A DNA stretch of 64,000 bases from assembly GCF_014207355.1 (NCBI RefSeq), contig NZ_JACHEF010000007.1, forward strand, positions 1 through 64,000. The letters are read 5' to 3'. A program made the translations under genes and the position numbers. The notes beneath the pieces were generated by a model, which saw only the letters and a list, made by a program, of their open reading frames with translations, had not been told where the DNA came from and made no database searches. Of this stretch, positions 1 to 15,900 are shown one piece after another. This stretch comes from Mesorhizobium sangaii. GTDB taxonomy: Bacteria > Pseudomonadota > Alphaproteobacteria > Rhizobiales > Rhizobiaceae. How positions within the stretch are numbered: position 1 is the first letter of the stretch; each line of letters starts with the position of its first letter.

Positions 1-3000
1 GTCACCGACAACGCATAGGCCGTCGTTCCGGCGCCGTCGGCGCCAAAGCTCGACGTCACCGTCACGATCGCCGCAGCGCTCGTTGCCGTCATCAGAGCCG
101 GGTTCAGCACACCGTCCGTCGTCGAGCCGTTGTTGGTCTCGTCAAGCGTCACCGAGCTGCCGACAACCGCGCTCGTGATCGACGGGCCATCATCCAGGAA
201 GGTCAGGTTGTTGCCGATATTCAGTGTCGCCGACTGATGATCGCCATCCTTGTCGGTGATCGTTGCGGTCAGCGTCACCAGATTGTCGGCGTTCAGGCTG
301 ACCGGCTCGTTCGGGTCCGTCGTCGGATGGACGACCGCCCGCTGCTGGTCGAGCGTCACATTGCCCGACGCATCGGTGCTGACCGTGAACACGATCACAC
401 CGCCGGCGCCCGCACGGCCGACCACCTGGCCAGCCTCGAGGCTCAGCACCACCGCCTGGCCGCTCGCCGTGTCGACCAGCCCGGTCGCGCCGGCGTTGAA
501 GGCAAGCGCATAGGTGATCGTGCCGGCGCCATCGGCGCCATAATTGGACGTAAAGGCGCTGGCGAAGCTCTGCGTGTCGTTGGTCGTCAGATCCGTCTCG
601 TCGACGCTCAGCGACGGCAGCTTCACATCGGCCAGCGCGACCGTCGGAGCATCGTCGTTGAAGGTTATGGTCAGCGCTCCCGGTGCCGTCGAGCCATCAG
701 CGTCGGTGATCACGTAGCCGAGGTTGACCGTCGCATTATTCTCGTCGTTCGGACCCTGTGCCTGAAGCACGTTGTCGAGCAGCGTCACCGTGTAGGAGCC
801 GGTGGCCGGATCGGTCACATGCACCGTGAACAGATCACCACGTGGACCTGTCGCCGTCAGCGTGTCGCTGGCGGCGTTCCAGCTGTAGGTGACGTTCTCC
901 TGGCCGACCGTCCCGCTGGTGCCGTCCAGCGTCGCAAACGAGAAGCCGTTGGAACCGGCGCCGTCGCCGCCAACGCTGCCGCCCAGCGTGCCGTTGTAGG
1001 TCGCTTCGCTGGCGCTGAGCGGAACCTCGCCGGCATTGGCGTCGATGTCGCCCGCCGTGCTTGCCGCATTGCCGCCGGCAACCCCGTCATCATCGACCGC
1101 GGCCGCTGCCGTGCCGGTCGTCGGATGGTTGGCGTCCGTCACCGCAAAGCTGATGCCGGCCGTCGCCTTGTCGCCATCGCCGTCCGTCACGGTATACGTC
1201 GCCGAGGCCGCACCGGCTCCAATGACCGGACTGTTGGCGGTGAATGAATAGCTACCGTCGGCCTTGACCTTGATAAAGCCGTCGCCGATGTCGATCGCCT
1301 GCGAGTAGCCGTCGCCGCCGAAGACCAGGGCGGTGGCGCCAATATGCGTCACCGTGGCGCCGTCGGCGCCGGCGACGAAGTCCAGCGTGCCGGTGATGGT
1401 CGCGCCTTCCAGAACATTCTGCGAAGCCTCGGTCGTGGCCGTCGGCACGTCGTCGACGATGTTGACCGACAGCGTGCCATTGACGCTTTGCGCGTCCTGG
1501 TCGGTGAGCGTGACGGTGAAGTTCTCGAACAGGCTGTTGGTGCCCTGGACGGCCGGATGCGCCTCATTGTCGAGGAGCGTGTAGGTGTAGCTCACCTGAC
1601 CGGTCGCGGCATCGTAGGCCGTCACCGTCAGCGTGTTGCCCAGCGCCGTCGTGAACGAGCCCGCCGTGAACGCGCCATTGGTGATGAAGGTGTGGCCGTC
1701 GATCGCCAGCGAGGCGATGCCGTCGGGCGAGGAAATGGCGAAGGTGCCGCCTTGCGTGGTGCTTTCCTTGGCAGTGTCGGAGCCGTCCGACTCACCGGAT
1801 CCACGGTTGGCCAGCAGGTCATTTTCGTTGACGACGACGTCGCCGCCACCGGCTGCCGGCGTCAGGTCACCGATCGTCGGTGTCGAATTGCCGATCGAGA
1901 TCGTCAATGTCGTATGCGACAGATCTCCGTCGCCGTCCTTGATCGTGTAGGTGAAAACGTCGTGGACGCCGCCAGGCGTGCCGGCATCGCGCACATAGCT
2001 GTAGGAGCCGTCCGCCTGCAGCGTCAGCGTGCCATAGGCGCCGTGGATCGGCGTGCCCAGTGTGACGCCGCTGTCCAGATCGGCATTGGTCGTGCCGGCG
2101 GCAACGCCCGCGACCTTCGCGTCATCGGCGCCCTTGGTGTCGGCGCCCGCCGCATTGCCGTCGCTGCCAGCGCCGCTGATCACATTGCCGCCTATAGGCG
2201 CGTGCGAACCCGCCGCCACCGCGTCGGTGTCGGCAACTGCCGTCGGTGCATCATCGATGATGTTGATGACCAGATTGCCGCCCGGGGCCGGATTGCCATT
2301 TGCATCCGTCACCGCGACCGGGAAGCTCACATTGGTGGCGTTGCCAGAGGTGTTGTCGAGAAGCGTGTAGGTGTAGTGGATGGTGCCGATGCCGGTCGCC
2401 GCATCGAAGACATAGCTCGCCGTCAGCGAGCCGGTCCCATCGGTGAAGGTCTGAGCCACATCGCTTAGCACATGGCCGTCGAGCGAGACCACCGACACGC
2501 CGTCAGGCGAAGTGAAGCCGATGTTGCCCGAGGTCGTCTCCGACGACGCGGACGCGTCCGACCCGGCGGGCTCACCGCCACGCGCCGGCAAGCCGGCCTC
2601 GTTGACTGTTGCCGATCCGATGAGGTCGATCGAGGGGGTGGAGTCTTTTTCCGCGACGCCAATCGTCAGCTCGCGCCGGTCCAGCAACCCGAACTGCAAG
2701 TCTGTCGGGGGCAACAGGGCCGAAAGACCGAACCCGTCGCCGATGCCGCCGGCGGGGATTTCGAAATTCCCGCCTGCACTGGGTGGCGAACCGCCCGGGC
2801 CGGCCGACATGGAACCGTCGGCGCCGAAGGCAACGTCGACATGGCTCGCCTCGAGCGCGGCGAGCAATGCAACGCGCGGCACCTCGACGTCGCCGATGAC
2901 GAAGGTCGGCACGTTCAAGGCGCCATCCTTGATGACGATCACCGAGCCGTCGGCCTGCTCGAGCACAAGGTTGTGGCCGTCGACCTTGATGTTGTCGATG

Positions 3001-3281
3001 GAAACGTTGGAAGGAAGTTTCACGATGTTGCTGGCGTCAGCCACATATTCTTGGGGTGCCGTCGCCGCGGGTGCGTTTGCTGTCGCCGGCGCTTCCGGCT
3101 TGGCGGGCGCTCCGCCAACATCAACCGGCACCGGTTCGGCCGCTGCCGGCGCGGGCTGCTGGGTCGAAGTTGCTTGTGCGACCAGGATCTCCCCCGGCGA
3201 TGCCTGACCATTGTGTTCGCTGGACGCGGAATGCTCGTTCAAGGAACCCGAAGAACTGTCCAACTCATTATTGGTGGTCAT
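1..3281 (-). CDS. Giant VCBS/T1SS-143-type repeat adhesin, N-terminal 1093 residues (partial)
   Basis: An open frame runs leftward from an ATG at 3279-3281 to the window edge without a stop, so the C-terminus is missing. Residues 1-80 are a low-complexity Ala/Pro/Gln-rich leader. Residues ~85-200 form a conserved-looking N-terminal module (SSGGNF-like 'SAGGNFEIP', then 'LLPPTDLQFG'), as in alphaproteobacterial large secreted adhesins. From ~200 on, Ig-like repeats follow, each ending in a DD-x-P signature ('INIIDDAPTA', 'VNIVDDVPTA', 'ITFNDDAPTV', 'LTFLDDGPSI') and containing 'SYTYTLLDN'-like strands. There is no Sec signal peptide, which fits type I secretion by the exporter encoded just right of it. 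The predicted role is a surface adhesin or biofilm matrix protein. The family is clear; the ligand and total length are unknown. Confidence 0.85.
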   Translation of the reverse strand, partial: MTTNNELDSSSGSLNEHSASSEHNGQASPGEILVAQATSTQQPAPAAAEPVPVDVGGAPAKPEAPATANAPAATAPQEYVADASNIVKLPSNVSIDNIKVDGHNLVLEQADGSVIVIKDGALNVPTFVIGDVEVPRVALLAALEASHVDVAFGADGSMSAGPGGSPPSAGGNFEIPAGGIGDGFGLSALLPPTDLQFGLLDRRELTIGVAEKDSTPSIDLIGSATVNEAGLPARGGEPAGSDASASSETTSGNIGFTSPDGVSVVSLDGHVLSDVAQTFTDGTGSLTASYVFDAATGIGTIHYTYTLLDNTSGNATNVSFPVAVTDANGNPAPGGNLVINIIDDAPTAVADTDAVAAGSHAPIGGNVISGAGSDGNAAGADTKGADDAKVAGVAAGTTNADLDSGVTLGTPIHGAYGTLTLQADGSYSYVRDAGTPGGVHDVFTYTIKDGDGDLSHTTLTISIGNSTPTIGDLTPAAGGGDVVVNENDLLANRGSGESDGSDTAKESTTQGGTFAISSPDGIASLAIDGHTFITNGAFTAGSFTTALGNTLTVTAYDAATGQVSYTYTLLDNEAHPAVQGTNSLFENFTVTLTDQDAQSVNGTLSVNIVDDVPTATTEASQNVLEGATITGTLDFVAGADGATVTHIGATALVFGGDGYSQAIDIGDGFIKVKADGSYSFTANSPVIGAGAASATYTVTDGDGDKATAGISFAVTDANHPTTGTAAAAVDDDGVAGGNAASTAGDIDANAGEVPLSASEATYNGTLGGSVGGDGAGSNGFSFATLDGTSGTVGQENVTYSWNAASDTLTATGPRGDLFTVHVTDPATGSYTVTLLDNVLQAQGPNDENNATVNLGYVITDADGSTAPGALTITFNDDAPTVALADVKLPSLSVDETDLTTNDTQSFASAFTSNYGADGAGTITYALAFNAGATGLVDTASGQAVVLSLEAGQVVGRAGAGGVIVFTVSTDASGNVTLDQQRAVVHPTTDPNEPVSLNADNLVTLTATITDKDGDHQSATLNIGNNLTFLDDGPSITSAVVGSSVTLDETNNGSTTDGVLNPALMTATSAAAIVTVTSSFGADGAGTTAYALSV

Positions 3282-3605
3282 TGCTGAAACCCCTCCGACA
3301 TTTCCCGGCAAGAGACATTGGCCACTTCTGCTTTGCAACAACCCCGCAATCTATTTCATATACTCCGATATGCTTGCCCCAGCATTTTTTGCGCGTTGGT
3401 AAACCTCGAACATATAACCTGATATATGCCGGCTTCCACGTAGCTCGCTTGCCGGAGGCTGGACCCGGTCTCTTGGTAAATAGAAGTATAAAATCAAATA
3501 AAATTTTAGATAAAATAGACAAAGCCACTTTTCGTAAAGTTATCTACCTTCCTTTCCAATAATTTGAGACAAGATTGGTAGCGTCCACAGTCAAAGGTGG
3601 GCGCT
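3282..3605. promoter_or_regulatory. Divergent promoter region between the adhesin and the LapG-like protease
   Basis: This 324-bp gap carries no gene. It separates divergent start sites, so promoters for both genes should lie here. The stretch at about 3475-3560 is strikingly A+T-rich for this genome. An AAAGG ribosome-binding site lies at 3593-3597, eight bases before the ATG at 3606. No specific operator was recognised. Confidence 0.5.
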
Positions 3606-4550
3606 ATGAAAAAAGAAAAAACAGTCCTGGGGAAAACCGGGCTCAAGGTGCTCCTGCTGACAATCGGCCTTGTCGGCCTGGCAGGACCATCGTTCGCAAA
3701 TGCCGTTTCCGGGGAGGCTGCCACTACCGGCACGCCTCTGGAAAGGGTCCTGACACCGCCCTGTCTCGGCGGTGTTTCGCTGGCGAGGCCGCAGCCTTGG
3801 CAGCCTGCAGCTCCTTACCGGATCAGCATGGTTTTCGGCAGCTACGGCCCGGCATTTGCTGATCGCGGGGATGGCTCGTCGACGGAGCGCAGAGGTGCCG
3901 GGATAGATCCGGTGCAGACGGCATCGATCATTCCCGGCGTATTCGGATCGGTTGCCTTGTCCATGCGCAATTTCCCCGTCTCGGCTCGTTGGGCGCCCGT
4001 CTACCGGGCAATCACCAGCTGCTCGGCAGGCAGCGCCTGCGAGCGCAAGAGTGCGGCTTTTGCCAGCATGGTCTCCGCTGCCCAGGGCAAGGGGTTCAGC
4101 GAGAAACTGTCCTTCGTCAACAGCAGCGTAAATCACCTGATTGCCTACAGGAAAGACAGCGTCGTCTACGGCAAACTCGACTATTGGGCAAAGCCATCGG
4201 AAATTCTCGAACGGCGAGCCGGCGACTGCGAGGATTTTGCCATCCTCAAGATGACGGCTCTGCTGAGAGCCGGCATCCCAACGCAAAGCATGGCGCTCGT
4301 CGTTCTGCAGGACCGCAAGCGAGGCTTCTTTCACGCGGTGCTGTCGGTGAGCACAGGCAGCGGCACGTTCATTCTCGACAGCCTCAGCAACACCGTCGTG
4401 CGCGATAGCGATCTTCCCGACTACGTTCCGCTCTATTCGTTCAGCACGGACCGGGCCTGGATCCACGGCTCGAAACCGGGCGCAGCCCAGATGGCTGAGA
4501 TCAAGGGCGGCTTCGCGACCGTCGCGCCGGGCGAAGGCTTTCAGCCATAG
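3606..4550 (+). CDS. lapG: LapG-type periplasmic transglutaminase-like cysteine protease (BTLCP family)
   Basis: In the Lap systems of Pseudomonas and others, LapG cuts the N-terminal retention region of a type I-secreted adhesin and so releases it from the outer membrane. This 314-aa protein has a signal peptide (hydrophobic 'VLLLTIGLVGLAG', likely cleavage after 'SFA'). The BTLCP core is visible: catalytic Cys in 'RAGDCEDFAILK', His in 'GFFHAVL' and Asp in 'ILDSL'. The start at ATG 3606 is chosen over an in-frame GTG at 3597 because AAAGG at 3593-3597 sits eight bases before it and overlaps the GTG. The gene is divergent from the adhesin and faces the secretion operon, so the adhesin is its likely substrate. 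No LapD (c-di-GMP receptor) gene is in the window. Confidence 0.85.
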   Translation: MKKEKTVLGKTGLKVLLLTIGLVGLAGPSFANAVSGEAATTGTPLERVLTPPCLGGVSLARPQPWQPAAPYRISMVFGSYGPAFADRGDGSSTERRGAGIDPVQTASIIPGVFGSVALSMRNFPVSARWAPVYRAITSCSAGSACERKSAAFASMVSAAQGKGFSEKLSFVNSSVNHLIAYRKDSVVYGKLDYWAKPSEILERRAGDCEDFAILKMTALLRAGIPTQSMALVVLQDRKRGFFHAVLSVSTGSGTFILDSLSNTVVRDSDLPDYVPLYSFSTDRAWIHGSKPGAAQMAEIKGGFATVAPGEGFQP

Positions 4551-4568
4551 ATTTCCCGGCAAGATCGG

Positions 4569-4659
4569 ATGTCGCCAAAAGTGGTTTTGCGACAATGGTT
4601 TACATGAAGCCAGAGCGTGAGCGCATCGGCTGAATCCAGTTCAACGTGACGCGTTCTAG
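4569..4659. repeat. Degenerate copy of the two-hairpin intergenic repeat
   Basis: The segment reads ATGTCGCCAAAAGTGG...GCGACAATGG...GCGTGAGCGCATCGG-CTGAATCC...CGTGACGCGTTCTAG. It aligns in order with both halves of the repeats at 11580-11683 and 39511-39614 but has lost arm symmetry. It lies between convergent genes, and its end overlaps the TAG stop of the RHH_4 gene. Confidence 0.6.
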
Positions 4660-5297
4660 CCGCCGAAGACGAACGCCATCAGCAACTCCGGCTCGACCAC
4701 CGGGGCCCGCACGACATTCAGATGACCTCGGTATCGACGTTCACCGGCGCCGATGACAAAGCCGGTAGCCACCGGCGCTTGGCCATTGGCGTCGAGCCGG
4801 GCGAATATGTCGGCTACATTGAGGTCCAGCGCCAGCTTGAGGTCATGACGCGCCTCATCGTTTGGGGCTATCGGCAACTGACGCTTGACCAGTTGCTGGA
4901 ACGGCGCGTTGAACGTCAGGATCTTCTTCGACGATGCCAAGGCAAAGGCTGGCGACGGGCAGGCGACCACTATGGCGTTGATGGTGTTGATCGACGCAAG
5001 CCTTCGCAAGGTCAGGTTTTCTTCCCCCAAACCACGCATACAGGCCACCCTGATTGCGGATGTCAGGTTGCCTGTCTGTGCCTGGCTTTCGGCAATCTCA
5101 TCGATGAGCATGCCGATCGTGCACTTCCTGCTTTCGGCCATCTGCTTCAGCGAGACCCAGAAGGCCCGTTCCAAACGGATGCCGCGTCGTACGCCGCCGC
5201 GTGCGACAACCCGAAATTCCAGCCCAAAATCCTCAGCCGTGACAGGAGGCAGCAGCCGCTCGTGACTTGGAAGAGGAGAGCTGGCGCTACCGCTCAC
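4656..5297 (-). CDS. Ribbon-helix-helix (RHH_4) protein with a possible PAS-like C-terminal part
   Basis: This 213-aa protein has an RHH_4-type segment at ~35-95: 'GIRLERAFWVSLKQMAE' as strand plus first helix, then 'GMLIDEIAES' and 'NLTSAIRVACMRGL'. RHH_4 proteins are small predicted DNA-binding proteins of alphaproteobacteria. Residues ~100-213 ('NAIVVACPSPAFALAS', 'ILTFNAPFQQLVK') look like a PAS-type fold, but this is weak. Its start overlaps the end of the upstream hlyD-like gene by 11 bp, so the two are probably translationally coupled. It is thus the last gene of the secretion operon and may regulate adhesin production. That role is inferred only from context. Confidence 0.7.
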   Translation of the reverse strand: MSGSASSPLPSHERLLPPVTAEDFGLEFRVVARGGVRRGIRLERAFWVSLKQMAESRKCTIGMLIDEIAESQAQTGNLTSAIRVACMRGLGEENLTLRRLASINTINAIVVACPSPAFALASSKKILTFNAPFQQLVKRQLPIAPNDEARHDLKLALDLNVADIFARLDANGQAPVATGFVIGAGERRYRGHLNVVRAPVVEPELLMAFVFGG

Positions 5298-6576
5298 TCA
5301 TCGCCTCCTGACGTGCCTTGTTGATCGGCTTCAACAGATAATTCAGGATCGTCTTGCGCCCGGTCTTGATGTCGACGGAACATATCATGCCCGGGATGAT
5401 CGAATAGGCCTTGCCGTCTCTTTCGAGTGTCGATTTGTCCGTCGACACGCGCACTTGGTAATAGGGTTCGCCTGTCTTCTGGTCGACCAGGCTGTCGGCC
5501 GTGATATTGGAGACCTTACCCTCGATGCCGCCGAAGATCGAGAAATCGTAGGCGGTGACCTTGATAAGTGCGTCTTGGTCCGGCCGGATGAAGGCGACAT
5601 CTCGCGGTGAAACCCGCGCCTCGACCAAAAGGGTCTCGGAGGTCGGGACGATGCCGGCCACGACCGCTCCAGGCTGGACGAAGGCGCCGACCGTGTTCAG
5701 CTCCAGCGTGTTGACAATCCCATCCACTGGAGACCGGATATCCGTGCGCGCGACCTTGTCGGTTGCGCCACGTATGGTCTCATCGACCACCGAGAGATCG
5801 GCCAGCGCCTCCGTCAGGTCGCTCAGAGCTTCCTGCTGCAACTGCAGGCCGAGCTCGTCGACCTGAAGCTGGGCTTCCGTGATAGCCCCCTTGGTTTTCT
5901 TGATGGTTTCACCGGCGAGGTTCAACTGCCCTTGCAGTTCGGTATGCTCACGCTCGACGCGGATCTGCTCAGTCCTCGCCATCAGCCCCTTCTTGACCAT
6001 GGAATCGACCAGCTCCTTTTCCTGGTCGCTAACAGCCAGATTCTTGGTGAGACGATCTAGATTGGCAGAGGCTTCGTCCAATTCATTCTGGCGCTGATCG
6101 AGGCGCGACTTGAGAACCGACAGCTTGACTTCGAAGTTTTCGCGGCGCGCGACGAGCAGCTTCTGCTCGTTTTCGCAGATTTCGGGCGCTGCCTTCTGGA
6201 TCTCGGGCGGACAGGGAAATGCGCCTTCGAGATTGCCACTCTGCTCGAACTGGAGCCGCGCAATGCGCGCCTGCAAGGCTCGCGCCTTGGCCTGCTGCTC
6301 GCCAAGGCTGGAGGTGTTGAGCGTGTTGTCGAGACGGATGATGAGATCATTCTTCTTCACGACCTGGCCAATCGTCACTGCGATTTCCTGGACGACACCG
6401 GCTTCGCTCGCCTGAATGATCTGGGTCTTGGAAGCGGGTATCACCTTGCCGTCGCCTCGCGCGATCTCATCGACTTCGGCAAAGGCTGCCCAGGCGACAA
6501 AAACAACGAAAAGCGCTCCTATGATGAATATGGACGCCGACGCAAAGAGCGGCGGCCTATCTTCCCTGGCAAGCAT
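5287..6576 (-). CDS. Type I secretion periplasmic adaptor (HlyD/LapC family)
   Basis: The adaptor links the inner-membrane ABC exporter to the outer-membrane TolC channel. The 429-aa protein has a single N-terminal membrane segment ('IFIIGALFVVFVAWAAFA'), then a first lipoyl-type half ('VIPASKTQIIQASEAGVV'), a long coiled-coil hairpin at ~95-275 and the second half with 'DIRSPVDGIVNTLELNTVG'. The C-terminal beta domain contains 'IIPGMICSVDIKTGRKTILNYL', the HlyD family's end signature. It is 41 bp downstream of the ABC gene and overlaps the RHH_4 gene, consistent with one operon. Confidence 0.92.
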   Translation of the reverse strand: MLAREDRPPLFASASIFIIGALFVVFVAWAAFAEVDEIARGDGKVIPASKTQIIQASEAGVVQEIAVTIGQVVKKNDLIIRLDNTLNTSSLGEQQAKARALQARIARLQFEQSGNLEGAFPCPPEIQKAAPEICENEQKLLVARRENFEVKLSVLKSRLDQRQNELDEASANLDRLTKNLAVSDQEKELVDSMVKKGLMARTEQIRVEREHTELQGQLNLAGETIKKTKGAITEAQLQVDELGLQLQQEALSDLTEALADLSVVDETIRGATDKVARTDIRSPVDGIVNTLELNTVGAFVQPGAVVAGIVPTSETLLVEARVSPRDVAFIRPDQDALIKVTAYDFSIFGGIEGKVSNITADSLVDQKTGEPYYQVRVSTDKSTLERDGKAYSIIPGMICSVDIKTGRKTILNYLLKPINKARQEAMSER

Positions 6577-6617
6577 TTCCTACGCCCCAACGCATTGGAT
6601 GCATTCAATTCGTTCTG

Positions 6618-8750
6618 TCAGGCGCTTGTTTTCTGCAACGCCTGTATAACTTGGTCCTTCGGTCCGTCAGCAACGATCTTGCCCTGCTCGATAACGATCA
6701 GGCGGTCGGCCAGTTCAAGCATGCTGAAGCGATGTGTGGACACGATCAACGTGGTGTCGCGGTCAAAGGCGACCTTGAGCTGCTTTATCAACTGGCGTTC
6801 CGATGCGAGATCCATCGAGCCCGATGGTTCATCCAGAAAGACGATTTTCGGCTTGGTCAGCAGCAGGCGTGCGATCGCCACCGTCTGCCTCTGGCCGCCT
6901 GAAAGATTGGTGCCACGCTCGCCGACATTCATGTCGTAACCACGCGGATGGCGTGACACGAAATCGTCGACGCCAGCCGCCTTTGCCGCTTCGATGATTT
7001 GCTCATCGGTAGCCTCCGGGCAAGCCATCAGGAGATTTTCCTTGATGGTGCCCGAGAACAGATCGCCAGCCTGCGCAACGATGCCGACAGCGGCGCGAAC
7101 CTCTGACGGGTGATACTGGCGAATATCGATCCCATCCAGCAGCAGCTCACCGGAGGTCGGCAGGAACAGCCTGCCGACCAGCCGACCCATCGTCGTCTTC
7201 CCTGATCCTATGCGACCGATGATGCCGATGCGCTCTCCCGGCTTCACCGTGAAATTCAGACCGGTCAAAACCTCGTTTTCCGAACCGGGATAGACAAACC
7301 CGACATTCCTGAACGCCATCGCCCCGTTGCGAATGGGTCGGTTGACGAAACCCACCGTGTCCGGCCGGTCCTCCGGCTGATCCATGATCGAGTTCACCAT
7401 CCTCAACGAAAGCATGGCCTGGCGAAACCGGGACAGCGTGATGGCGATCTGGCCGAGCGGCGCCACCGCCCTGCTCGCCAGCATGACCGTTCCTATGATT
7501 GCTCCTGTCGAGACATGTCCTTCCGAGAAGGCGTAGGCGCCGGCCACGACCAGGGCGACGGTCACCAGTTGTTGTATCGACTGGGTTATGTTGCCTGCGG
7601 CCGCCGAGAGCTGCTTGATCTTCTCGGACGTGTTGGCGGCGTTCTTGGAATGCTCTCCCCATTTTCGCAGCAGATACGCCTCGGCGCGCAGCGATTTGAT
7701 CGTCTCCAGCGTGGAAATGGATTCGACCAGCAGGGCCTGGCGTTGCGAAGCTTCGTTCATCGAGGCGGCGACGCGCTTGCCGATGCGGCGCTGGGTAATC
7801 AAGCCGACGATGACGGACATCACAAAGGCCAGCGCCGGTATGATCACCAGCCAGCCGCCTATCGCATAGATGACGAGAAGAAAGACGAAGACGAATGCCG
7901 TGTCGATGAACACGCTGATCGTGTTCGAAGTGAAGAACTCTCTGACGAACTCATATTGCGTGACTCGGTTCGCGTATTCGCCGGTCGAGCCGGGACGCGC
8001 CGACAGTGACGAGTTCAGCACTTTTTCGAACAGAAGATACGATATCCGAACATCCGCCTTCCGCCCGGCATAGTCGATCAGGGAGGCCCTGGCCGTCTTC
8101 AGAAGCAGATCGAACAGGATGACGGCACCGATGCCGATGGCCAGAACCCACAGTGTGGATATTGCCTTGTTCGGCAGGATCCTGTCGTAGACGTTCATCG
8201 TGAAGATGGGTGAGGCGATGGCCAGAACATTGATGAATATCGCTGCAAGGACGACTTTCGAATAGGTGCGCCAGAAGGCGCCCATCGTCCCCGTCAGCCA
8301 ATGGCGCCTTTCGATCTTCTGCGCCGAGCCGACCTTCATCGCTTCGGTGGCATTGGCGTAGGTGATCGAGAAGGACGCGCCGCCGCTGATATAGCTGGCA
8401 GCCAGCTCGGATCTGCTGATCGTGGTGCGGCCGTCCTCCTGGGGCGCGGTCAGGTATTCGCCCGGCTCGATCTCCGCGAGCAGGGCGACAGGCAACTGGC
8501 TGGCGCGAAACAGAATGGCGGGAAGATCGACGCGTCCGCGCAAGAAATCGCGATGACTGACGTCCTTGACCTCGAGGCCGATGCGCTCGGCAAGGTGCCG
8601 AATATCCTCTACCTCAATTCGCGTCTCTGAAATCGGCACCCCGGCAAACAGCACTGTCTCGGCGCTCGGCCTGCCAAGATAGCCGGCGACCGCTGAAAAG
8701 CAGGCTTTGAATGCCTCCTTGGGGGAGAGGATGTTGGGTTGCTGGTTCAC
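6618..8750 (-). CDS. Type I secretion ABC exporter with C39-like domain (LapB/HlyB type)
   Basis: This 710-aa protein exports the large adhesin across the inner membrane. Residues ~1-130 are a C39-peptidase-like domain without the catalytic DCG motif, so it should bind substrate rather than cut it. A six-helix transmembrane domain follows (~155-440), then the nucleotide-binding domain with Walker A 'GRIGSGKTTMG', Q-loop 'VGIVAQAGDLF', signature 'NLSGGQRQ', Walker B 'KIVFLDEPSGSMD' and H-loop 'IVSTHR'. In LapB-type exporters this fits adhesins with N-terminal anchoring. It is 39 bp downstream of the TolC gene and 41 bp upstream of the HlyD gene. Confidence 0.93.
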   Translation of the reverse strand: MNQQPNILSPKEAFKACFSAVAGYLGRPSAETVLFAGVPISETRIEVEDIRHLAERIGLEVKDVSHRDFLRGRVDLPAILFRASQLPVALLAEIEPGEYLTAPQEDGRTTISRSELAASYISGGASFSITYANATEAMKVGSAQKIERRHWLTGTMGAFWRTYSKVVLAAIFINVLAIASPIFTMNVYDRILPNKAISTLWVLAIGIGAVILFDLLLKTARASLIDYAGRKADVRISYLLFEKVLNSSLSARPGSTGEYANRVTQYEFVREFFTSNTISVFIDTAFVFVFLLVIYAIGGWLVIIPALAFVMSVIVGLITQRRIGKRVAASMNEASQRQALLVESISTLETIKSLRAEAYLLRKWGEHSKNAANTSEKIKQLSAAAGNITQSIQQLVTVALVVAGAYAFSEGHVSTGAIIGTVMLASRAVAPLGQIAITLSRFRQAMLSLRMVNSIMDQPEDRPDTVGFVNRPIRNGAMAFRNVGFVYPGSENEVLTGLNFTVKPGERIGIIGRIGSGKTTMGRLVGRLFLPTSGELLLDGIDIRQYHPSEVRAAVGIVAQAGDLFSGTIKENLLMACPEATDEQIIEAAKAAGVDDFVSRHPRGYDMNVGERGTNLSGGQRQTVAIARLLLTKPKIVFLDEPSGSMDLASERQLIKQLKVAFDRDTTLIVSTHRFSMLELADRLIVIEQGKIVADGPKDQVIQALQKTSA

Positions 8751-8789
8751 GATATGCCCGTAAGGACCCTCGCTGGACCCTGCACCGTC

Positions 8790-10238
8790 CTACTTCTTCC
8801 TCACTGGCGCAAGGATATCGAAAGGCAGGTCGTTCTTCTGCTCCGATGGTGTCCGCGCATAGGTCTCAGTGTCCGCGGTTTCTGGTGCGTTAAACTCGGA
8901 TCGTGCATAGGCCGTCGCTTGCTTTGCCGGCTGAAGACCCATCGTTTTCAGCAATTGACCTGTCGCAGCCAGAAGCCGGTATTGGGCGAACAGCGATGCA
9001 TAGGATGCTGTGTCCGCCAGCGTTGCCGTGTTGAACCGCGTATTCTGCGCATCGAGCACGTCGAGCAGCGATCGTTGCCCTACCTTGAATTGCTCGCGGT
9101 AGGACGAAACCAGCTTTTCACTGGAAGCGGCTTGCAGCCTGAGCGTCTTTGCAAGGTCGGCTTGCCGGAAACGGCGATCCCATGACGTGCGGACAGCCTC
9201 CTCGATTTCACGCAAGACCTGGTGATAGGCAAGCCGCTGTTCGCTGGCACGGCGGATCTGTTCCTGTTCATTGGCCTTGTCTATGCCGCCTCGATAAAGG
9301 TTCCAACGCAGCACCAGACGCGCCTGCAGGTCACTGGCGTCGCCATTGTCGCCGTCAATGTCATACCCTCCCCTGGCACGGCCTTCGGCCAGGACTTCGG
9401 GGCCGTATTTCGCCCGGGCCGCATCCACCATGGAAGCAGCAGCGGCGATATCGCTGGTGGCCATGTGAACGCGTGGATTGTTCTGTCGTGCCAGGCCCAG
9501 CGCATCATCAAGTGACCTCGGCAGTGCGGCGGCGACATCACCAGGCCTCGATGCATCGACCAGCGGCTTCCCGACGGTCTTGAAGAACCGGATCCTGGAG
9601 GCTTCCAGTTCTTCGGTCGCCTCCTGCATGCGTGCCTTGGCTGCGAACAGACGCTCTTCGGCCTGCTGCCGGTCGGCCTCGTTCAGCGCCCCGCCCGAGA
9701 TGCCTTGCCGGATGTCGCCGAGTATCGCCTGATGGAAACCCAGGTTCTTCTTGGCTTCGGCGACGATCGAAGCCTGCAGCATGTATTCAAGATAGTCCTG
9801 GACGACCGACAGACCGATGAATTCCGAGCGCTCCAGCACCCGGAAGGACGCTCCGTCGACCCGCGATGCCTGGCGGTTCAATTCCGCCCGCCGCGCTCCG
9901 CTGTCGAATAGCTTCTGTGTAACCACCAGATCCGCTTCTGCCGGATAGAGCGAATCGTCCTCTATCGACAGTGAGCGCCGGGACGAATTGTCGAGGCGAC
10001 GAACTCCGGCCGATGCCTCGACATCGACACTTGGAAGATAAAGGCCCTTGGCCTGCCGCAATTCGAACTCGATTGCTTCGCGGTTTTCAATTGCCTGTCC
10101 AATCTCGGGATTGGATTCCACAGCAACAGCCATCGCCTCCTTGAGCGTGAGCGCATGAGCACTCGCGCAGGTCAGCATTGTAGCCGCCATCAAAAGACCA
10201 AGGCGCTTGCCGACGGCCGAGATGCTTGTTTTATTCAT
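8790..10238 (-). CDS. TolC-family outer-membrane channel (LapE-like)
   Basis: The 482-aa protein is the outer-membrane exit duct of the type I system; in Lap systems this pore also holds the adhesin's N-terminus. The start is set at 'MNKTSISAVGKR' (ATG at 10236-10238) because a clean signal peptide follows ('LGLLMAATMLTCASAHA') and an AGGGTGGG ribosome-binding site precedes it; a longer frame to 10328 adds 30 unlikely residues. Duplicated TolC halves are visible: 'LTLKEAMAVAVESNPEIGQA' and 'SLDDALGLARQNNPRVHMA', with the typical 'YREQFKVGQRSLLDVLDAQN' in the second. It is the first gene of the leftward secretion operon. Confidence 0.92.
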   Translation of the reverse strand: MNKTSISAVGKRLGLLMAATMLTCASAHALTLKEAMAVAVESNPEIGQAIENREAIEFELRQAKGLYLPSVDVEASAGVRRLDNSSRRSLSIEDDSLYPAEADLVVTQKLFDSGARRAELNRQASRVDGASFRVLERSEFIGLSVVQDYLEYMLQASIVAEAKKNLGFHQAILGDIRQGISGGALNEADRQQAEERLFAAKARMQEATEELEASRIRFFKTVGKPLVDASRPGDVAAALPRSLDDALGLARQNNPRVHMATSDIAAAASMVDAARAKYGPEVLAEGRARGGYDIDGDNGDASDLQARLVLRWNLYRGGIDKANEQEQIRRASEQRLAYHQVLREIEEAVRTSWDRRFRQADLAKTLRLQAASSEKLVSSYREQFKVGQRSLLDVLDAQNTRFNTATLADTASYASLFAQYRLLAATGQLLKTMGLQPAKQATAYARSEFNAPETADTETYARTPSEQKNDLPFDILAPVRKK

Positions 10239-10604
10239 ATAACCCACCCTAAAGTTTCCCCCAGCACCCTTATTCGCGAGCGCTACACCAAGCCAAGGCC
10301 TGCCTCCGAGAACTATCCACAGTTTCACGAAATGTGTGAGGAATTATTGAATTAGCTGCTGCTAAATCGATGATTCAGGCCACAAGATTGTTAAATGTAA
10401 CAAAAATGGCACATAAGCATAGACCCCCTGCGATCGTATCCTGACGCTGCCAAGTGGGGAAAAGGACAAAAAACGGAAGGTGGTTAACCAAGGCGCGGAG
10501 AATCAAGCAGGGACAGCCGCTATTTGCGACCAAACCGAAGGCAGATCGCTGTTACAGCAGTTTTCGGGGGGTCAAGGATTGATTGAGTGAACGGACTGCG
10601 TTTC
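10239..10604. promoter_or_regulatory. Intergenic region holding the secretion-operon promoter
   Basis: This 366-bp gap lies upstream of the TolC-like gene and downstream of an IalB-family gene, both leftward. It should contain the secretion operon promoter. A-rich blocks occur around 10390-10420. No credible ORF, RNA or repeat was found. Confidence 0.4.
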
Positions 10605-11138
10605 TCAACGTGCGTTTAGCGCAGCCATGCGGTCGAGCGCCGAGGTCAGGCCGCCAAGCGACACCGGAAATGTCAGCTGGGTCTCCGCATCCGTCGTGAC
10701 ATTGAGCTTCAGCACCGAGCCTCTTCTCATCTTTGCAAGCGTCGGCGGATCAATGGAAAACACCGCGATGCAACCCGTCGGCAGGCAGGTCCTGAACCGC
10801 TGCTGGGACAATGGCGGCTGATCGTCTATCTGGGGCGTTATGCCGGCATCGAGCAATATGCCGAAGGGCAGAAGCAGGGTGGCCGTTGCAGAACCATCCG
10901 CACGCCTCTGAAGCTCCACGGCAAGAAGCCTTTGGCCGTTCTGCTGAACCTGGTCCTGCGAAAGCGAACAGGTCTTTGCATTCTCCCGAACGGAGCAGGC
11001 AACGCTCCAGTCCTGGAAGACTTCGCGCAGGGACGACGGTCCATCTGGAAGAGCCCCCTTCTGCTGCGCCGACGCGGGCGATATCAAAGAGAATAGGACT
11101 GCCTCGCATGTGGAGACGGCCTTGAGGCCACGCTTCAT
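10605..11138 (-). CDS. IalB-family (invasion-associated locus B) periplasmic protein
   Basis: IalB-family proteins are small secreted or periplasmic proteins of rhizobia and Bartonella; their biochemistry is not settled. The 177-aa product begins 'MKRGLKAVSTCEAVLF', with a signal peptide ending near 'SPASA'. Family marks are 'FQDWSVACS', 'KTCSLSQ', 'LLPFGILLDAGITPQID', 'RTCLPTGCIAVF' and 'SLGGLTSALD'. The start at 11138 makes a 4-bp ATGA overlap with the DUF4189 gene, so the two are co-translated. A longer frame to 11291 overlaps that gene and is rejected. Confidence 0.85.
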   Translation of the reverse strand: MKRGLKAVSTCEAVLFSLISPASAQQKGALPDGPSSLREVFQDWSVACSVRENAKTCSLSQDQVQQNGQRLLAVELQRRADGSATATLLLPFGILLDAGITPQIDDQPPLSQQRFRTCLPTGCIAVFSIDPPTLAKMRRGSVLKLNVTTDAETQLTFPVSLGGLTSALDRMAALNAR

Positions 11139-11527
11139 GTACAGACCCACTCGCGGATCTTGCATTTGTCTCCTGCCGCCTGGCAGGCCTGCAAGGCGAG
11201 GTCTTCCGCTTCCCGGCGGGTCTGGGCAGACTTTGCGCCCCACGGCGTGAGCCGGTCGGCTGCCTTCTCGGCCACGGCCAGCGCACCGCAATGATTGTAA
11301 GGGAAGCCGGTCTGGTCGTCGTCATCCCAATGGCGGTGATTGCGGAACACGGCGACGACGGTGCAGTTCTGTCCGCCCGCGTTCTCGCAATGCTTGAGCG
11401 CGGTGTCCGACGCCTCTTGCCGCTTGTCGGCGCCCCAGAAGAAGCCGTATTTTACATCGGCACTGGAATAGGCGATCGCCGCCCAGATGCCTTTCTCCTG
11501 CTGAGGTGGCGGAGCAGGCAATGCCAA
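11135..11527 (-). CDS. DUF4189 family protein with an apparently disrupted start
   Basis: DUF4189 proteins are small secreted proteins of unknown function. The 'WAAIAYSSADVKYGFFWG' opening, a Cys pair ('CENAGGQNCTVVAVF') and the Cys-rich C-terminus ('CQAAGDKCKIREWVC') fit the family. In this frame the nearest start is a TTG at 11525-11527, which lacks a full signal peptide. Upstream, the same frame reads 'DLWLLFLALPAPP', a signal-peptide core, but is closed by a TGA at 11552-11554. A well-placed ATG with GGAGGA (11553-11555) is one frame off. Removing one base would give 'MRSG' followed by 'LWLLFLALPA'. Either a real frameshift or a sequence error is likely. Confidence 0.65.
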   Translation of the reverse strand: MALPAPPPQQEKGIWAAIAYSSADVKYGFFWGADKRQEASDTALKHCENAGGQNCTVVAVFRNHRHWDDDDQTGFPYNHCGALAVAEKAADRLTPWGAKSAQTRREAEDLALQACQAAGDKCKIREWVCT

Positions 11528-12383: not shown

Positions 12384-12959
12384 TTATTTGACTGGCGAAA
12401 GGGCGTCTGTCAGCCCCTTGAGTGTTGCGGTCACGGTGATCGTCTGGCCGTCGACGGTCGAGTAGGAGATCGCCGGCGTCGCATTCTGCGAGATCTGTTG
12501 GCGCATCACGGGCCCCACCGGCAACATCCCGACACAGACCATTTCGTTGCAGCCGTTCAGGTGAACGTCGATCGCCTCGCTCCGCCCCTCGAACTTCAGC
12601 GACACCAGGCCGTCGCTCTTGGCGTTCGGCGCGGTGCGCAGGATCATGTACGGCTTGCCGTCCTGCGTGGCGGCCAGCGACCAGCTGAAGGCCATCTTGC
12701 CGGACGTGTCCTCGATGACCTGCGAGACATTGCAGACCTTCTTGCGAGCTTTGAGGTTCTCGTCGCAGATCAGTGTCCAATTTCCGAAGGGACGGATGGT
12801 GCGCTGGTAGTCCCCAAGCTTCACTTCGGGAGGCACCGCCACGTCCGAGGGCTTGATCCTGTATTGCGAGGCAACCTGCCCGGCAGCCGGCGCGAGCCCG
12901 CCGCAAAGCGCCAGGCAAGTCAGCACGGCAAAGCGGGCAAGGCTGGTTTGCCTGTTCAT
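12384..12959 (-). CDS. IalB-family periplasmic protein downstream of the trimeric adhesin
   Basis: The 191-aa product has a signal peptide ('FAVLTCLALCGGLAPAAG') and IalB features: 'PFGNWTLICDENL', 'KKVCNVSQVIED', a paired Cys segment 'LNGCNEMVCVGMLP' and 'ATLKGLTDAL' at the end. It shares these landmarks with the IalB-like protein at 10605-11138, so the locus has two divergent family members. It starts 7 bp after the trimeric autotransporter gene, so the two are surely co-transcribed. A periplasmic role during adhesin biogenesis is plausible but unproven. Confidence 0.85.
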   Translation of the reverse strand: MNRQTSLARFAVLTCLALCGGLAPAAGQVASQYRIKPSDVAVPPEVKLGDYQRTIRPFGNWTLICDENLKARKKVCNVSQVIEDTSGKMAFSWSLAATQDGKPYMILRTAPNAKSDGLVSLKFEGRSEAIDVHLNGCNEMVCVGMLPVGPVMRQQISQNATPAISYSTVDGQTITVTATLKGLTDALSPVK

Positions 12960-12966
12960 TCCCGCC

Positions 12967-15900
12967 TCAGTTCAGTGTGAAGCTGAGGCCGGCGCCAACA
13001 CCGACATGTCCCCCCGCGGCCGTGCCGGACAGGTTGCCACGGATGCGGCCATCCTCGCTGGTGTAGCCCGCACCGAAGGCAAAGGCGCCGGCGTCCCGCC
13101 AGAAGCCGCCACCCGCCGCGACGCTCAGCTTTCCGGGACGGTCATCGTAGCGCAGCGAGGCGGCGGCGAGCCCGATCGCTGCCGCCTGCCGTGCCTCGTC
13201 ACGTATGCCGCTGATATCCTGATTGAGCTGGCTCAGCTTCTGGTCGGTGTAATCATTGGCCTGCTGCAAGGTCGTGACGGCCACTTTGTCGGTGTAGTCG
13301 TTGGATGCATCGATGGCGTAGGCCACACGGTTGTCGGTATAGCTCTTGGTCTCGGTTATGCCCTTGTTCAACTGGTTGACATTGACCGCATCGGTGCCGG
13401 CGACACCGGGACCGACATTCGAGATGACCACCGGCGCGTTCACGTCTCCGCCCTGCAGCGTGATGCTGTTCTTTTTGCTGCCGTCCGGATTGGTGTCATA
13501 CACCACCGCATTCTGGGTGAGGTTTCCGACGCCGTCTTTCAGGTCCTCGATCGCCGTGTTCGTGGCGAAAAGCTGGGAGCCGTTTACCGCGTCGGTGCTG
13601 CCGGCCGAAACACGCCCGGCGGCGACATTGGTGATCGTCCTTTCGGCGCCGGCGGCGCCGACGCTGACGGTTCCGGCCGGAGCCGTCCCGGCATAGGCAT
13701 AGGTCTTGCCGTTGATGGTGGTGCTGGAGGTGCCGACCGCGGTCTGCGTCACCGAGCCCGAGCCCAGCGCCACGTCATTGGCATTGTTGGCCTTGGCGCC
13801 CTGGCCGAGCGCCACGGCACCTTGGCCCGTGGCTGTCGAACCATTGCCGGCGGCAAGGCTATTGGTGCCACTGGCCACGCTGGCTGGTCCGATAGCCACG
13901 CTGTCGGTGCCGCTGGCGGTCGAATCGGCCAGCGTCGAATTGGCGTGGAAATATTTGATGCCGGCGCCATTGTTGATGTTGGTCAGCGCATTATTGACGG
14001 CCGTGAACCCGTCATAGACAGTGGAGTAGGTGTTGCCCTGGATCGTATAGGTCGGCCCGGTGATCGAACCGTCGGGATTGACCGTGGTGCTGCCGCCGAA
14101 CAGGTTGCTGATGTTTTGCGACACACCGCGAAGCTGCGAGACGTTGACGGCATCGGTGTTGGCCGAGCCCGCCGCGACGTTGGTGAGCTTGCGTTCGGCT
14201 CCCGCGCCGCCGATCGACACCTCGCCGACCGAGGTCTGCGGGGCGGTGAGCGCAAAGGCCGTGTAGCCGGCCTGAGCGCCGACCGTGGTGACGGACTGAG
14301 CGCCCAGCGCGACGCTGTTGACGAAGGTGCTGTTGGCGCCGGCGCCGAGCGCCACCGACTGGATGCCGGACGCCAGTGAATTGGTGCCGAGCGCCAGTCC
14401 GTCGGCGAGCATGACATGGGCGTTCTGGCCGATGGCCGTTCCGCCGGGCGCCGTCTGGTCGACGATGGCGCCGTTGCCGATGCCGACACCATTGTCGCCG
14501 TTGACGACCGTCGTCGGGCCGACAGCAACCGACTCGGCGCCCACCGCGAGCGAGTCGCCGGCCGTCGAATTGGCATGGAAATACTTGGTCGACGTCGCCG
14601 AGACCGAGGCGATCACCCCCTGCAGCTGGCGCACGGTGACTGCATCCTGCGCTTGCGTGCCGTCGGCCACATTGGTGATCTGGCGGTAGGACGTGGCGGT
14701 GCCGACCGACACGGCGCCGAGCAGCGTCTTGTCGGTGGTGTTGTACTGGATGAAGTTGGATGAACCGGCCGCTATCTGGCCGGTGGCGGGCGCCACGGCC
14801 CGGTCGGACACGGAACCCGAACCAAGCGCCACGCTGCCGTCGATGCTGGCCAGTGTGCCGCGGCCGAGCGCCAGCCCGCTGGCGCCGGTCGCGGTCGCCT
14901 GGTAGCCGACAGCGGTGGAACCGACCCCTTGCGCGAAGGAATCGGTTGGCGCCAGTCCGGCCTCGTTGGTGCGGGCGTAGCGGATACCTATGCCGTTGGC
15001 GTCGGTATAGGCGGTCGAGGTGTCGCCGGCGATGTTGTTGATCGTGTTGCCAAGATTGGTGATGGAGCCGCCGATATTGGCAATGGCCGTGGTGTTGGCG
15101 GTCACCTGCTGGTTGGTGGCGAACAGTTGCGAGCCGTTGACCGCGTCGGTCGAGCCGCCATTCAACTGTCCGGCCGCGACGTTCTGGACCTGGCGCTCGG
15201 CCCCAGCCGACCCGACCGAGAAGGCGCCCGCCGGAGTGCCGCCGGCAAAGGTGTAGGCAGTGCCGCCGATCGTGGCTCCGCCGACATTGGTCGTTGCTCC
15301 TGACGTCGAATTCAGGCCGATCGCCGCATCGCCGGCATTGTTGGCCACGGCGTTGGGTCCGACCGCGACGGAATTCGTTCCAAGGGCCTGGGAATCCGGC
15401 AGGGCCGAATTGGCGTGGAAATACTTGATGCCGCCGCCGACATTGATGTTGTTGACGACGGCGCCGATGGCATCGACCGCCTGGTTGGTGGCGAAGAGCT
15501 GCGAGCCGTTGACCGCGTCGGTCGACGTCAAGCTGATCCGCCCCGCCGCCAGATTGGTGAGCGTGCGCTCCGCACCTGGCGCGCCGATGCTGACCGTCGA
15601 GGTCGGATTGGTGCCCTGGAAGGCATAGGTCGTGCCGTTGACCACGGCGCTTGCCGTGCCGACCGCCGCCGTGGTCACGGAACCGGAGCCCAGCGCCACG
15701 TCGCCGGAGCTTGCGGCCGCGGTAGCGCCGTTGCCCAGCGCGACATTGCCTGCGAGGCCGGCGGCACCAGCAGTCGAGCCATTGCCCAGGGCAACAGAGC
15801 CCTGCCCGATCGCCTTGTTGTTGTTGCCGATGGCGACAGCGCCCGCCGCCATATTGGCCGCGGTGGCGCTCGCCGTGCCATCGCTGTTGGCGATGTTGTT

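Follow-up and report, generated by a model that had tools for sequence, protein, structure and literature searches.

The first 64 kb of contig C7 of the 7.2-Mb Mesorhizobium sangaii genome, hereafter the window, carry a locus for a giant adhesin of a type I secretion system (T1SS), in which the adhesin gene stands beside genes for a LapG-type protease and an LssB-type exporter, with no recognizable gene for LapD. We propose, with a probability of about one half, that the locus encodes a Lap-like two-step T1SS for a large Rhizobiales RTX adhesin, in which the cyclic di-GMP (c-di-GMP) input enters via a receptor unlike LapD or DvhD. As the exporter family and the adhesin's N-terminal domain suggest, the adhesin would be exported through an LssB/HlyD/TolC exporter and held by that folded domain; a LapG-type, calcium-dependent protease, transcribed divergently from the adhesin, would then, judging from its family, cut the N-terminal region and free the adhesin. 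The c-di-GMP input would most likely enter through a locus-encoded inner-membrane protein, here called GG, by way of the RxxD I-site of a GGDEF domain that has lost its catalytic motif, and GG would probably work with two co-inherited partners, the lipoprotein LP and the small secreted protein SEC, both of which count among the locus products with access to the protease in the periplasm. Control through GG is argued from the retention of the I-site, from GG's fidelity to the cluster and from a report that in Rhizobium etli high c-di-GMP raises the extracellular levels of two large RTX/VCBS adhesins (PMC9855851); that GG binds c-di-GMP and affects adhesin display, and cleavage itself, we infer. 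Throughout, L-numbers denote the loci compared, G-numbers the genomes compared (G000 being that of M. sangaii) and C-numbers the contigs of the M. sangaii genome.

A LapG-type protease in a conserved adhesin-exporter cluster

The adhesin reading frame (1..3281, minus strand) starts at 3281 and runs to window position 1 without a stop; it carries T1SS-143/DUF5801 repeats (Pfam, NCBIfam), and only its 1,093 N-terminal residues are visible because the gene is cut by the edge of contig C7. Divergent from it lies a gene (3597..4550, plus strand) for a cysteine protease with, by eye, a signal-peptide-like N-terminus, which matches Peptidase_C93 in Pfam (E = 5e-22) and has its best solved relatives in the LapG structures 4fgo (3e-18) and 4u65 (2e-16). 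The catalytic triad C211/H246/D261 and the calcium pair D210/E212 are invariant in 18 orthologues; the score against the LapG equivalog NF045674, 86.8 bits, is far under the curated cut-off of 320. The exporter genes, all on the minus strand, encode a HlyD-family adaptor (5287..6576; TIGR01843, 368 bits, cut-off 209), an LssB-type permease/ATPase (6618..8750; TIGR03375, 794 bits, cut-off 693) and a TolC-family outer-membrane channel (8790..10328; PF02321, 125 bits; TIGR01844, 215 bits, just below the cut-off of 225). Two defining features of LapA/LapG/LapD systems are found here, namely a C93 protease with triad and calcium motif and a large adhesin with its own LssB-type T1SS.

A first-pass annotation, made from the letters of the sequence alone, had noted that adhesin, protease and exporter are packed together, and both the profile matches and the synteny bear this out: in 20 relatives, picked for comparison because they bear the protease, the whole cluster arrangement recurs without exception, the adhesin being recognized in 19, so it is not a chance arrangement. 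Among the matches listed, LapG-like proteases stand beside T1SS genes in loci labelled Mesorhizobium, Aminobacter, Rhizobium, Neorhizobium, Roseibium, Alsobacter and Rhizorhapis. The M. sangaii genome holds three further C93 proteases, all of which match the Pfam family far better than the locus protease does; two of these paralogues align and lack the LapG-like P-[VL]-Y-S-F strand, and the third did not align.

LapD and DvhD architectures are not recognized

The first-pass annotation saw no LapD in the locus, and the statement holds genome-wide: the LapD N-domain model PF16448 (LapD_MoxY_N) finds no match in the locus or anywhere else in the M. sangaii genome. It also matches none of a fixed set of 61 Mesorhizobium genomes, which is the sample used for all co-occurrence counts below. 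The same model, run as a positive control, matches 83 of 299 Pseudomonadota genomes; every strong match (E up to 1e-20), most of them to frames of ~650 aa, comes from outside the Alphaproteobacteria, and the 15 genomes of the same order or class that match give 3.4e-10 at best. A LapD orthologue elsewhere with a matching co-occurrence, which the annotation had named as evidence against its view, is thus nowhere found in the 61 genomes with a model that works in other lineages, and the surmise that control of release may differ here appears right.

Other proteins of the genome were considered as stand-ins. Among 19 EAL matches, five with a periplasm-sized N-terminus (L006, L013, L015, L016 and L018) were rejected as LapD substitutes, keeping GG(D/E)EF, ExLxR and DDFG, motifs that were found by crude regular expressions, with three of the five proteins incomplete in the stretch covered. 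A DvhD-like receptor was likewise rejected, since the sole gene with HD_5 matches has no transmembrane segment by hydropathy; a membrane HD-GYP receptor with a periplasmic dCache domain, as in the Dvh type, was not encountered in the genome, and neither the architecture of LapD, a LapD_MoxY periplasmic domain joined to HAMP-GGDEF-EAL, nor that of DvhD is recognized in it. As a separate observation, L020 (G000:C1:289656-290348) is a GGDEF-EAL protein with an intact GGDEF and a degenerate EAL motif, has only a short stretch between two transmembrane segments, and is, from its sequence, another possible c-di-GMP receptor.

We consider it very unlikely that a LapD with a diverged periplasmic domain escaped recognition elsewhere in the genome and still controls the protease. 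Such a protein would be in keeping with the partial conservation of the four positions through which LapG contacts LapD (PMC4359373), of which V205 is replaced by L and Y206 is kept, with the presence of EAL proteins with a periplasm-sized N-terminus, and with a 2020 paper that mentions LapD-like genes for certain Mesorhizobium clusters (PMC7730722). The other two contact positions, however, are altered (A169 to F) or missing (Y176), the five EAL candidates keep catalytic motifs unlike LapD, and PF16448 draws a blank across the 61 genomes.

The probable missing half of the locus encodes a degenerate GGDEF protein

That no LapD-type control could be seen in the window is correct as far as LapD goes, and it is also partly an effect of the assembly, because contig C7 breaks inside the adhesin: the locus does carry a component of c-di-GMP type, on the missing side of the break. 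Around the relatives of the protease (at least 80 loci, from a scan that is not exhaustive of all such loci) occur GGDEF-type proteins of ~255 aa with hydrophobic segments close to the N-terminus, two or three hydrophobic windows in 18 of the 20 listed and one in L083 and L084. The M. sangaii orthologue, GG, is a degenerate GGDEF membrane protein of 250 aa encoded at G000:C4:552909-553661, 5.7 kb from the end of contig C4. At the end of that contig a DUF5801 adhesin frame runs off the edge, leaving its C-terminal part with RTX repeats, and GG, the binding-protein-like lipoprotein LP and SEC are encoded there too. In relatives where the sequence reads through (e.g., L076, L084, L188, L195 and L196) the order is GG, SN, LP, in some SLT, then SEC, adhesin and protease, and in L076 and L084 it continues past the protease with RHH, HlyD, ABC and TolC. 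From this synteny, the end of C4 and the start of C7 are most likely two halves of one locus, with the adhesin's C-terminal RTX part on C4.

Between SEC and GG lie genes for an SLT lytic transglycosylase and for SN, an uncharacterized protein of 231 aa (L187:10415-11182 and L187:12508-13203, respectively); SN is present in 9 of 10 other loci compared and SLT in 2. On its other side GG is adjoined on C4 by a second T1SS cluster (546408-552887, equal to L186:5409-11888), which encodes a 1,088-aa DUF5801 protein, an ABC transporter and HlyD. That GG might belong to this second cluster was rejected as a general rule, as L187 and L188 have GG without it.

GG scores 77.5 bits against the Pfam GGDEF model, and only one, partial, match is lower among the 35 GGDEF matches of the genome. 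Two hydrophobic segments, joined by a very short loop, precede the cytosolic GGDEF domain, in which the catalytic motif is degenerate (GTSMF) and the I-site RxxD is kept. Across 57 distinct homologues (at least 90 bits), RxxD is present in 56, the remaining one having a gap there, and GG(D/E)EF in just 2; the motif reads mostly GTSMF, GASMF or GNSMF in Mesorhizobium, and ATNEL or ASNEL in Rhizobium. By comparison, 30 other GGDEF proteins of the M. sangaii genome have GG(D/E)EF in 26 cases and RxxD in 15, so that an I-site as such is common, whereas an I-site kept with the catalytic motif lost is uncommon. In a phylogenetic tree the 57 homologues form one clade with the M. sangaii gene, apart from the 30 others (support 0.77), and those that keep GGEEF or GGKEF (L110, L114 and L117) fall outside the next clade of 55 members (support 0.87). 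A degenerate A-site combined with a conserved RxxD, the signature of an I-site c-di-GMP receptor, is found across the GG family, which from its sequences looks like an enzyme turned receptor.

The family is also faithful to the locus. An orthologue of the protease is present in 51 of the 61 Mesorhizobium genomes (E up to 2.6e-53, the next best being 2e-17) and absent from 10; GG is found in the same 51, in 49 by score (E up to 4.9e-49) and in 2 by position, and SEC and LP are matched in exactly these 51 as well, with none of the three in the 10 genomes that lack the protease. GG and protease share a contig in 29 of the 51 genomes, at a distance of 6.8-29.8 kb, and GG lies on the contig of the protease or of SEC in 48. 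Better evidence than co-occurrence that GG belongs to the locus is its rearrangement, for GG stays in the locus through at least three gene orders, Rhizobium included: beyond the 3' end of the adhesin gene in most Mesorhizobium examined, beside tolC in L109, L112, L115 and G005, near the protease in L110, L114 and L117, and between tolC and the 3' end of an RTX protein in Rhizobium loci L131 and L134. Among the matches listed, 67 of the 80 loci hold the exporter core, and of these 34 have LP, 23 GG and 17 SEC, counts in which many flanks are too short to tell.

LP, SEC and the route from GG to the protease

LP is a lipoprotein of ~400 aa. The M. sangaii copy matches binding-protein families weakly (ANF_receptor, 1.7e-4, below the cut-off), 10 of 15 family members match Peripla_BP_6 (1.8e-18 for L076), and the family profile finds the solved binding protein 4gnr at 1e-8. 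Among the matches listed, LP divergently adjoins the protease in 19 of 20 loci labelled Rhizobium, Neorhizobium or Rhizobiales (L121, L123, L124, L126-L137, L140-L142 and L144), being missing in L149; in three other Rhizobiaceae or relatives, LP is on the same strand as the protease in L138, and there is none in the stretch covered in L118 and L125. The LP-protease pairing may be the tightest of all in the locus, because in L128 (L128:7172-9609) the divergent pair stands with no exporter genes within ~9 kb. SEC is a small secreted protein with a signal peptide by eye and a W-A-S-E-x-K motif; it is predicted to form a three-helix bundle, with a best fold match of Z 7.6, a value common for helical bundles, and its relatives sit beside exporters in L145 and L154.

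GG may act on the exporter, or on the protease through LP and SEC. The first route has a precedent in PelD, an I-site c-di-GMP receptor with a degenerate GGDEF domain, a GAF domain and four transmembrane helices, which contacts inner-membrane machinery. GG and PelD have in common a lost catalytic motif, a kept RxxD, a membrane anchor and a place beside a matrix-export locus; GG has no PelD-like GAF domain or four transmembrane helices, and its neighbor is a T1SS adhesin locus. GG could accordingly be imagined as a c-di-GMP receptor that controls export by contacting the T1SS as PelD contacts its machinery, while the protease would be limited by how strongly it is expressed, perhaps under the RHH protein and from the divergent promoter that it shares with the adhesin. 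We regard this as possible and less probable than the model proposed here. GG's very short loop suits an inner-membrane or cytosolic partner, HvyA of Caulobacter is regulated mainly by abundance (PMC4241560), adhesin and protease have a common divergent region that spans 313-317 bp, and the exporter operon includes the gene for an RHH protein; the position of the periplasm-facing LP divergently beside the protease in 19 of 20 Rhizobium-type loci speaks against it and suggests that something periplasmic concerns the protease.

A more tentative idea, which we hold to be somewhat more doubtful still, is that LapD's one-piece inside-out switch has been split in Rhizobiales: the dead GGDEF protein would read c-di-GMP at its I-site, and the message would pass to the protease via LP and the small, Cys-containing periplasmic SEC. 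The c-di-GMP control of adhesin release would then have found an independent third solution besides LapD and DvhD, one that might also take in an extracellular ligand via LP.

The adhesin N-terminus and candidate cut sites

AlphaFold2 confidently folds a single domain in the adhesin N-terminus, residues 75-162 (2796..3059, minus strand), a candidate retention domain that is compact and beta-rich with one helix (mean pLDDT 84-91 per ten residues over residues 81-160) and is conserved across 27 sequences; confidence is low for residues 1-74 and beyond the domain. No retention module model is among the Pfam/NCBIfam matches of the window adhesin. A Foldseek search with the N-terminal model gave no match at E up to 0.001, retention-module structures not being among those listed, and a profile search of the N-terminus against solved structures gave none either; the best VIA Z for the model, 4.7, is to RTX block V of an adenylate cyclase toxin (3.2 A over 73 residues).

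Two conserved motifs lie outside this domain. EPVPVDVG (residues 49-56), in which P50, P52, V53, D54 and G56 are nearly invariant in the 27 sequences, is adjoined by the first of two P-A-A stretches, which the first-pass annotation had placed, correctly, at residues 45-48 and 71-73. Together the first stretch and the motif behind it (residues 45-56, PAAAEPVPVDVG; 3114..3149, minus strand) form an alternative candidate cut site in the disordered N-terminus, and a di-alanine directly ahead of x-[ED]-P occurs there in 25 of 43 sequences, reading PAAG in L105 and L111. The second P-A-A stretch sits within a variable P/A-rich linker. The other conserved motif, S-[AS]-G-x-[ND]-F (residues 168-173; 2763..2780, minus strand; S168, G170 and F173 invariant in the 27 sequences), comes just past the folded domain and qualifies as a candidate cutting region solely through its position, which makes it a guess. 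The annotation had also seen no textbook TAAG site, and indeed no [TAP]AAG tetrapeptide occurs within residues 1-225; it is present in 7 of 43 adhesin sequences at varying places, and the window adhesin lacks one after the folded domain, where LapA has it. LapG-type enzymes cleave past a retention domain (PMC13090378, PMC6890996), which makes both candidates weak: the site around residues 46-48 has the right motif on the wrong side of the domain and, being located before it, fits a Lap-type retention cut badly, and the region past residue 162 is the right place with no di-alanine.

These features would suit a protease that serves maturation or quality control, with c-di-GMP playing no direct part and GG being a decaying pseudo-cyclase that linkage has preserved. 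No [TAP]AAG site is found in the window adhesin; the di-alanine precedes the folded domain, so that cleavage at that point would remove a disordered tail and the adhesin would keep the domain; and three other C93 proteases exist in the genome, such proteases having other roles in Alphaproteobacteria (PMC4241560). We nevertheless find such a function unlikely, as decay would hardly spare RxxD in 56 of 57 homologues and at the same time erase the catalytic motif, nor would a decaying GG be expected to persist in the locus through rearrangements.

Several observations weigh against our proposal of a Lap-like system read by GG. An I-site alone does not prove that GG binds c-di-GMP, and the few relatives that keep GGEEF (L110 and L114) imply, as far as their sequences tell, that the family was once enzymatic. 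GG is almost devoid of a periplasmic part, and its small loop rules out a LapD-like docking of the protease. The GG proteins of G006 and G075 score 133 and 138 bits, about the level of paralogues (up to 136), and were called by their position next to LP and SEC, that of G006 by the tree as well. The genes come and go as a cluster, so that the 51/10 split represents one unit and not 51 independent associations. The two R. etli adhesins may not belong to this locus type. Finally, there is no canonical cut site past the folded domain, and the partly conserved A-A-x-[ED]-P that precedes it misfits a Lap-type retention module.

Relation to known systems

With the Lap system of Pseudomonas fluorescens (LapA, LapG, LapD and LapBCE) the locus shares a T1SS adhesin, an LssB-type exporter, the clustering of the genes and a C93 protease with a C-H-D triad and the DCE calcium motif. 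It differs in having no LapD, no TAAG-type site in the window adhesin and an N-terminal domain with no retention-model match, in a protease far under the LapG equivalog cut-off, and in the addition of RHH, LP, SEC and GG. That LapD can be replaced was shown for the Dvh system of Desulfovibrio vulgaris (DvhG, DvhD; PMC13090378), which likewise combines a LapG-type protease with an unrelated c-di-GMP protein in the locus in place of LapD. DvhD, as described there, is a dCache-PAS-HD-GYP protein with a large periplasmic domain, whereas GG has a degenerate GGDEF domain and hardly any periplasmic part, and DvhG is membrane-anchored (PMC13090378), unlike the locus protease. HvyA-type alphaproteobacterial C93 proteases belong to the same Pfam family, of which the M. 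sangaii genome holds the three paralogues, the two alignable ones lacking the P-[VL]-Y-S-F strand; HvyA acts on capsulation (PMC4241560).

The association of such proteases with T1SS clusters is not new, because BTLCP and LapD-like genes are already reported in some Mesorhizobium clusters among the DDxP adhesin loci of rhizobia (PMC7730722). The available part of that report describes no degenerate GGDEF I-site protein, LP, SEC or co-occurrence for these loci, and in the open literature, represented mostly by titles and the openings of abstracts, no degenerate-GGDEF I-site protein, LP or SEC turned up in connection with loci of this kind.

Other features of the locus and its surroundings

The last gene of the exporter operon (4656..5297, minus strand), absent from the first-pass account, overlaps hlyD and encodes a DNA-binding-type RHH_4 protein (PF13467, 2e-15). 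It is present in all 20 protease-bearing relatives and, among the matches listed, in 63 of the 67 exporter-holding loci; its C-terminal part has no Pfam match and appears PAS-like by eye. The divergent control region between adhesin and protease (3282..3596) measures 315 bp and is nearly constant in relatives, at 313-317 bp across 34 sequences (the window and 33 close relatives chosen from the 80 loci, with the protease start of L089 extrapolated). Conserved blocks lie at both of its ends, those close to the protease start being >95% conserved; a riboswitch was considered and rejected, Rfam giving no match. The start of the TolC gene is uncertain, at 10328 or, as first annotated, at 10238: of 20 relatives, 6 show similarity from residue 31 (10238) onward and 5 from a point before residue 5.

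Beyond the T1SS locus, two IalB-family genes (10605-11291 and 12384-12959) separate it from a gene for a YadA-type trimeric autotransporter adhesin of 1,548 aa with head, stalk and anchor (12967-17613, minus strand). Similar genes come after tolC in L076-L079 and L081 as well.

Implications for adhesin release in Mesorhizobium

In the sampled genomes of the class there is no strong LapD match, although LapG-like proteases occur there beside T1SS genes. The locus supplies concrete, co-inherited candidates for release control (GG, LP, SEC and RHH) in a genus of root-nodule symbionts, and surface release in Mesorhizobium may be wired unlike the textbook Lap case. If GG is indeed the receptor, c-di-GMP control of large adhesins would have been reinvented with a third architecture, and root attachment and release would become directly testable.

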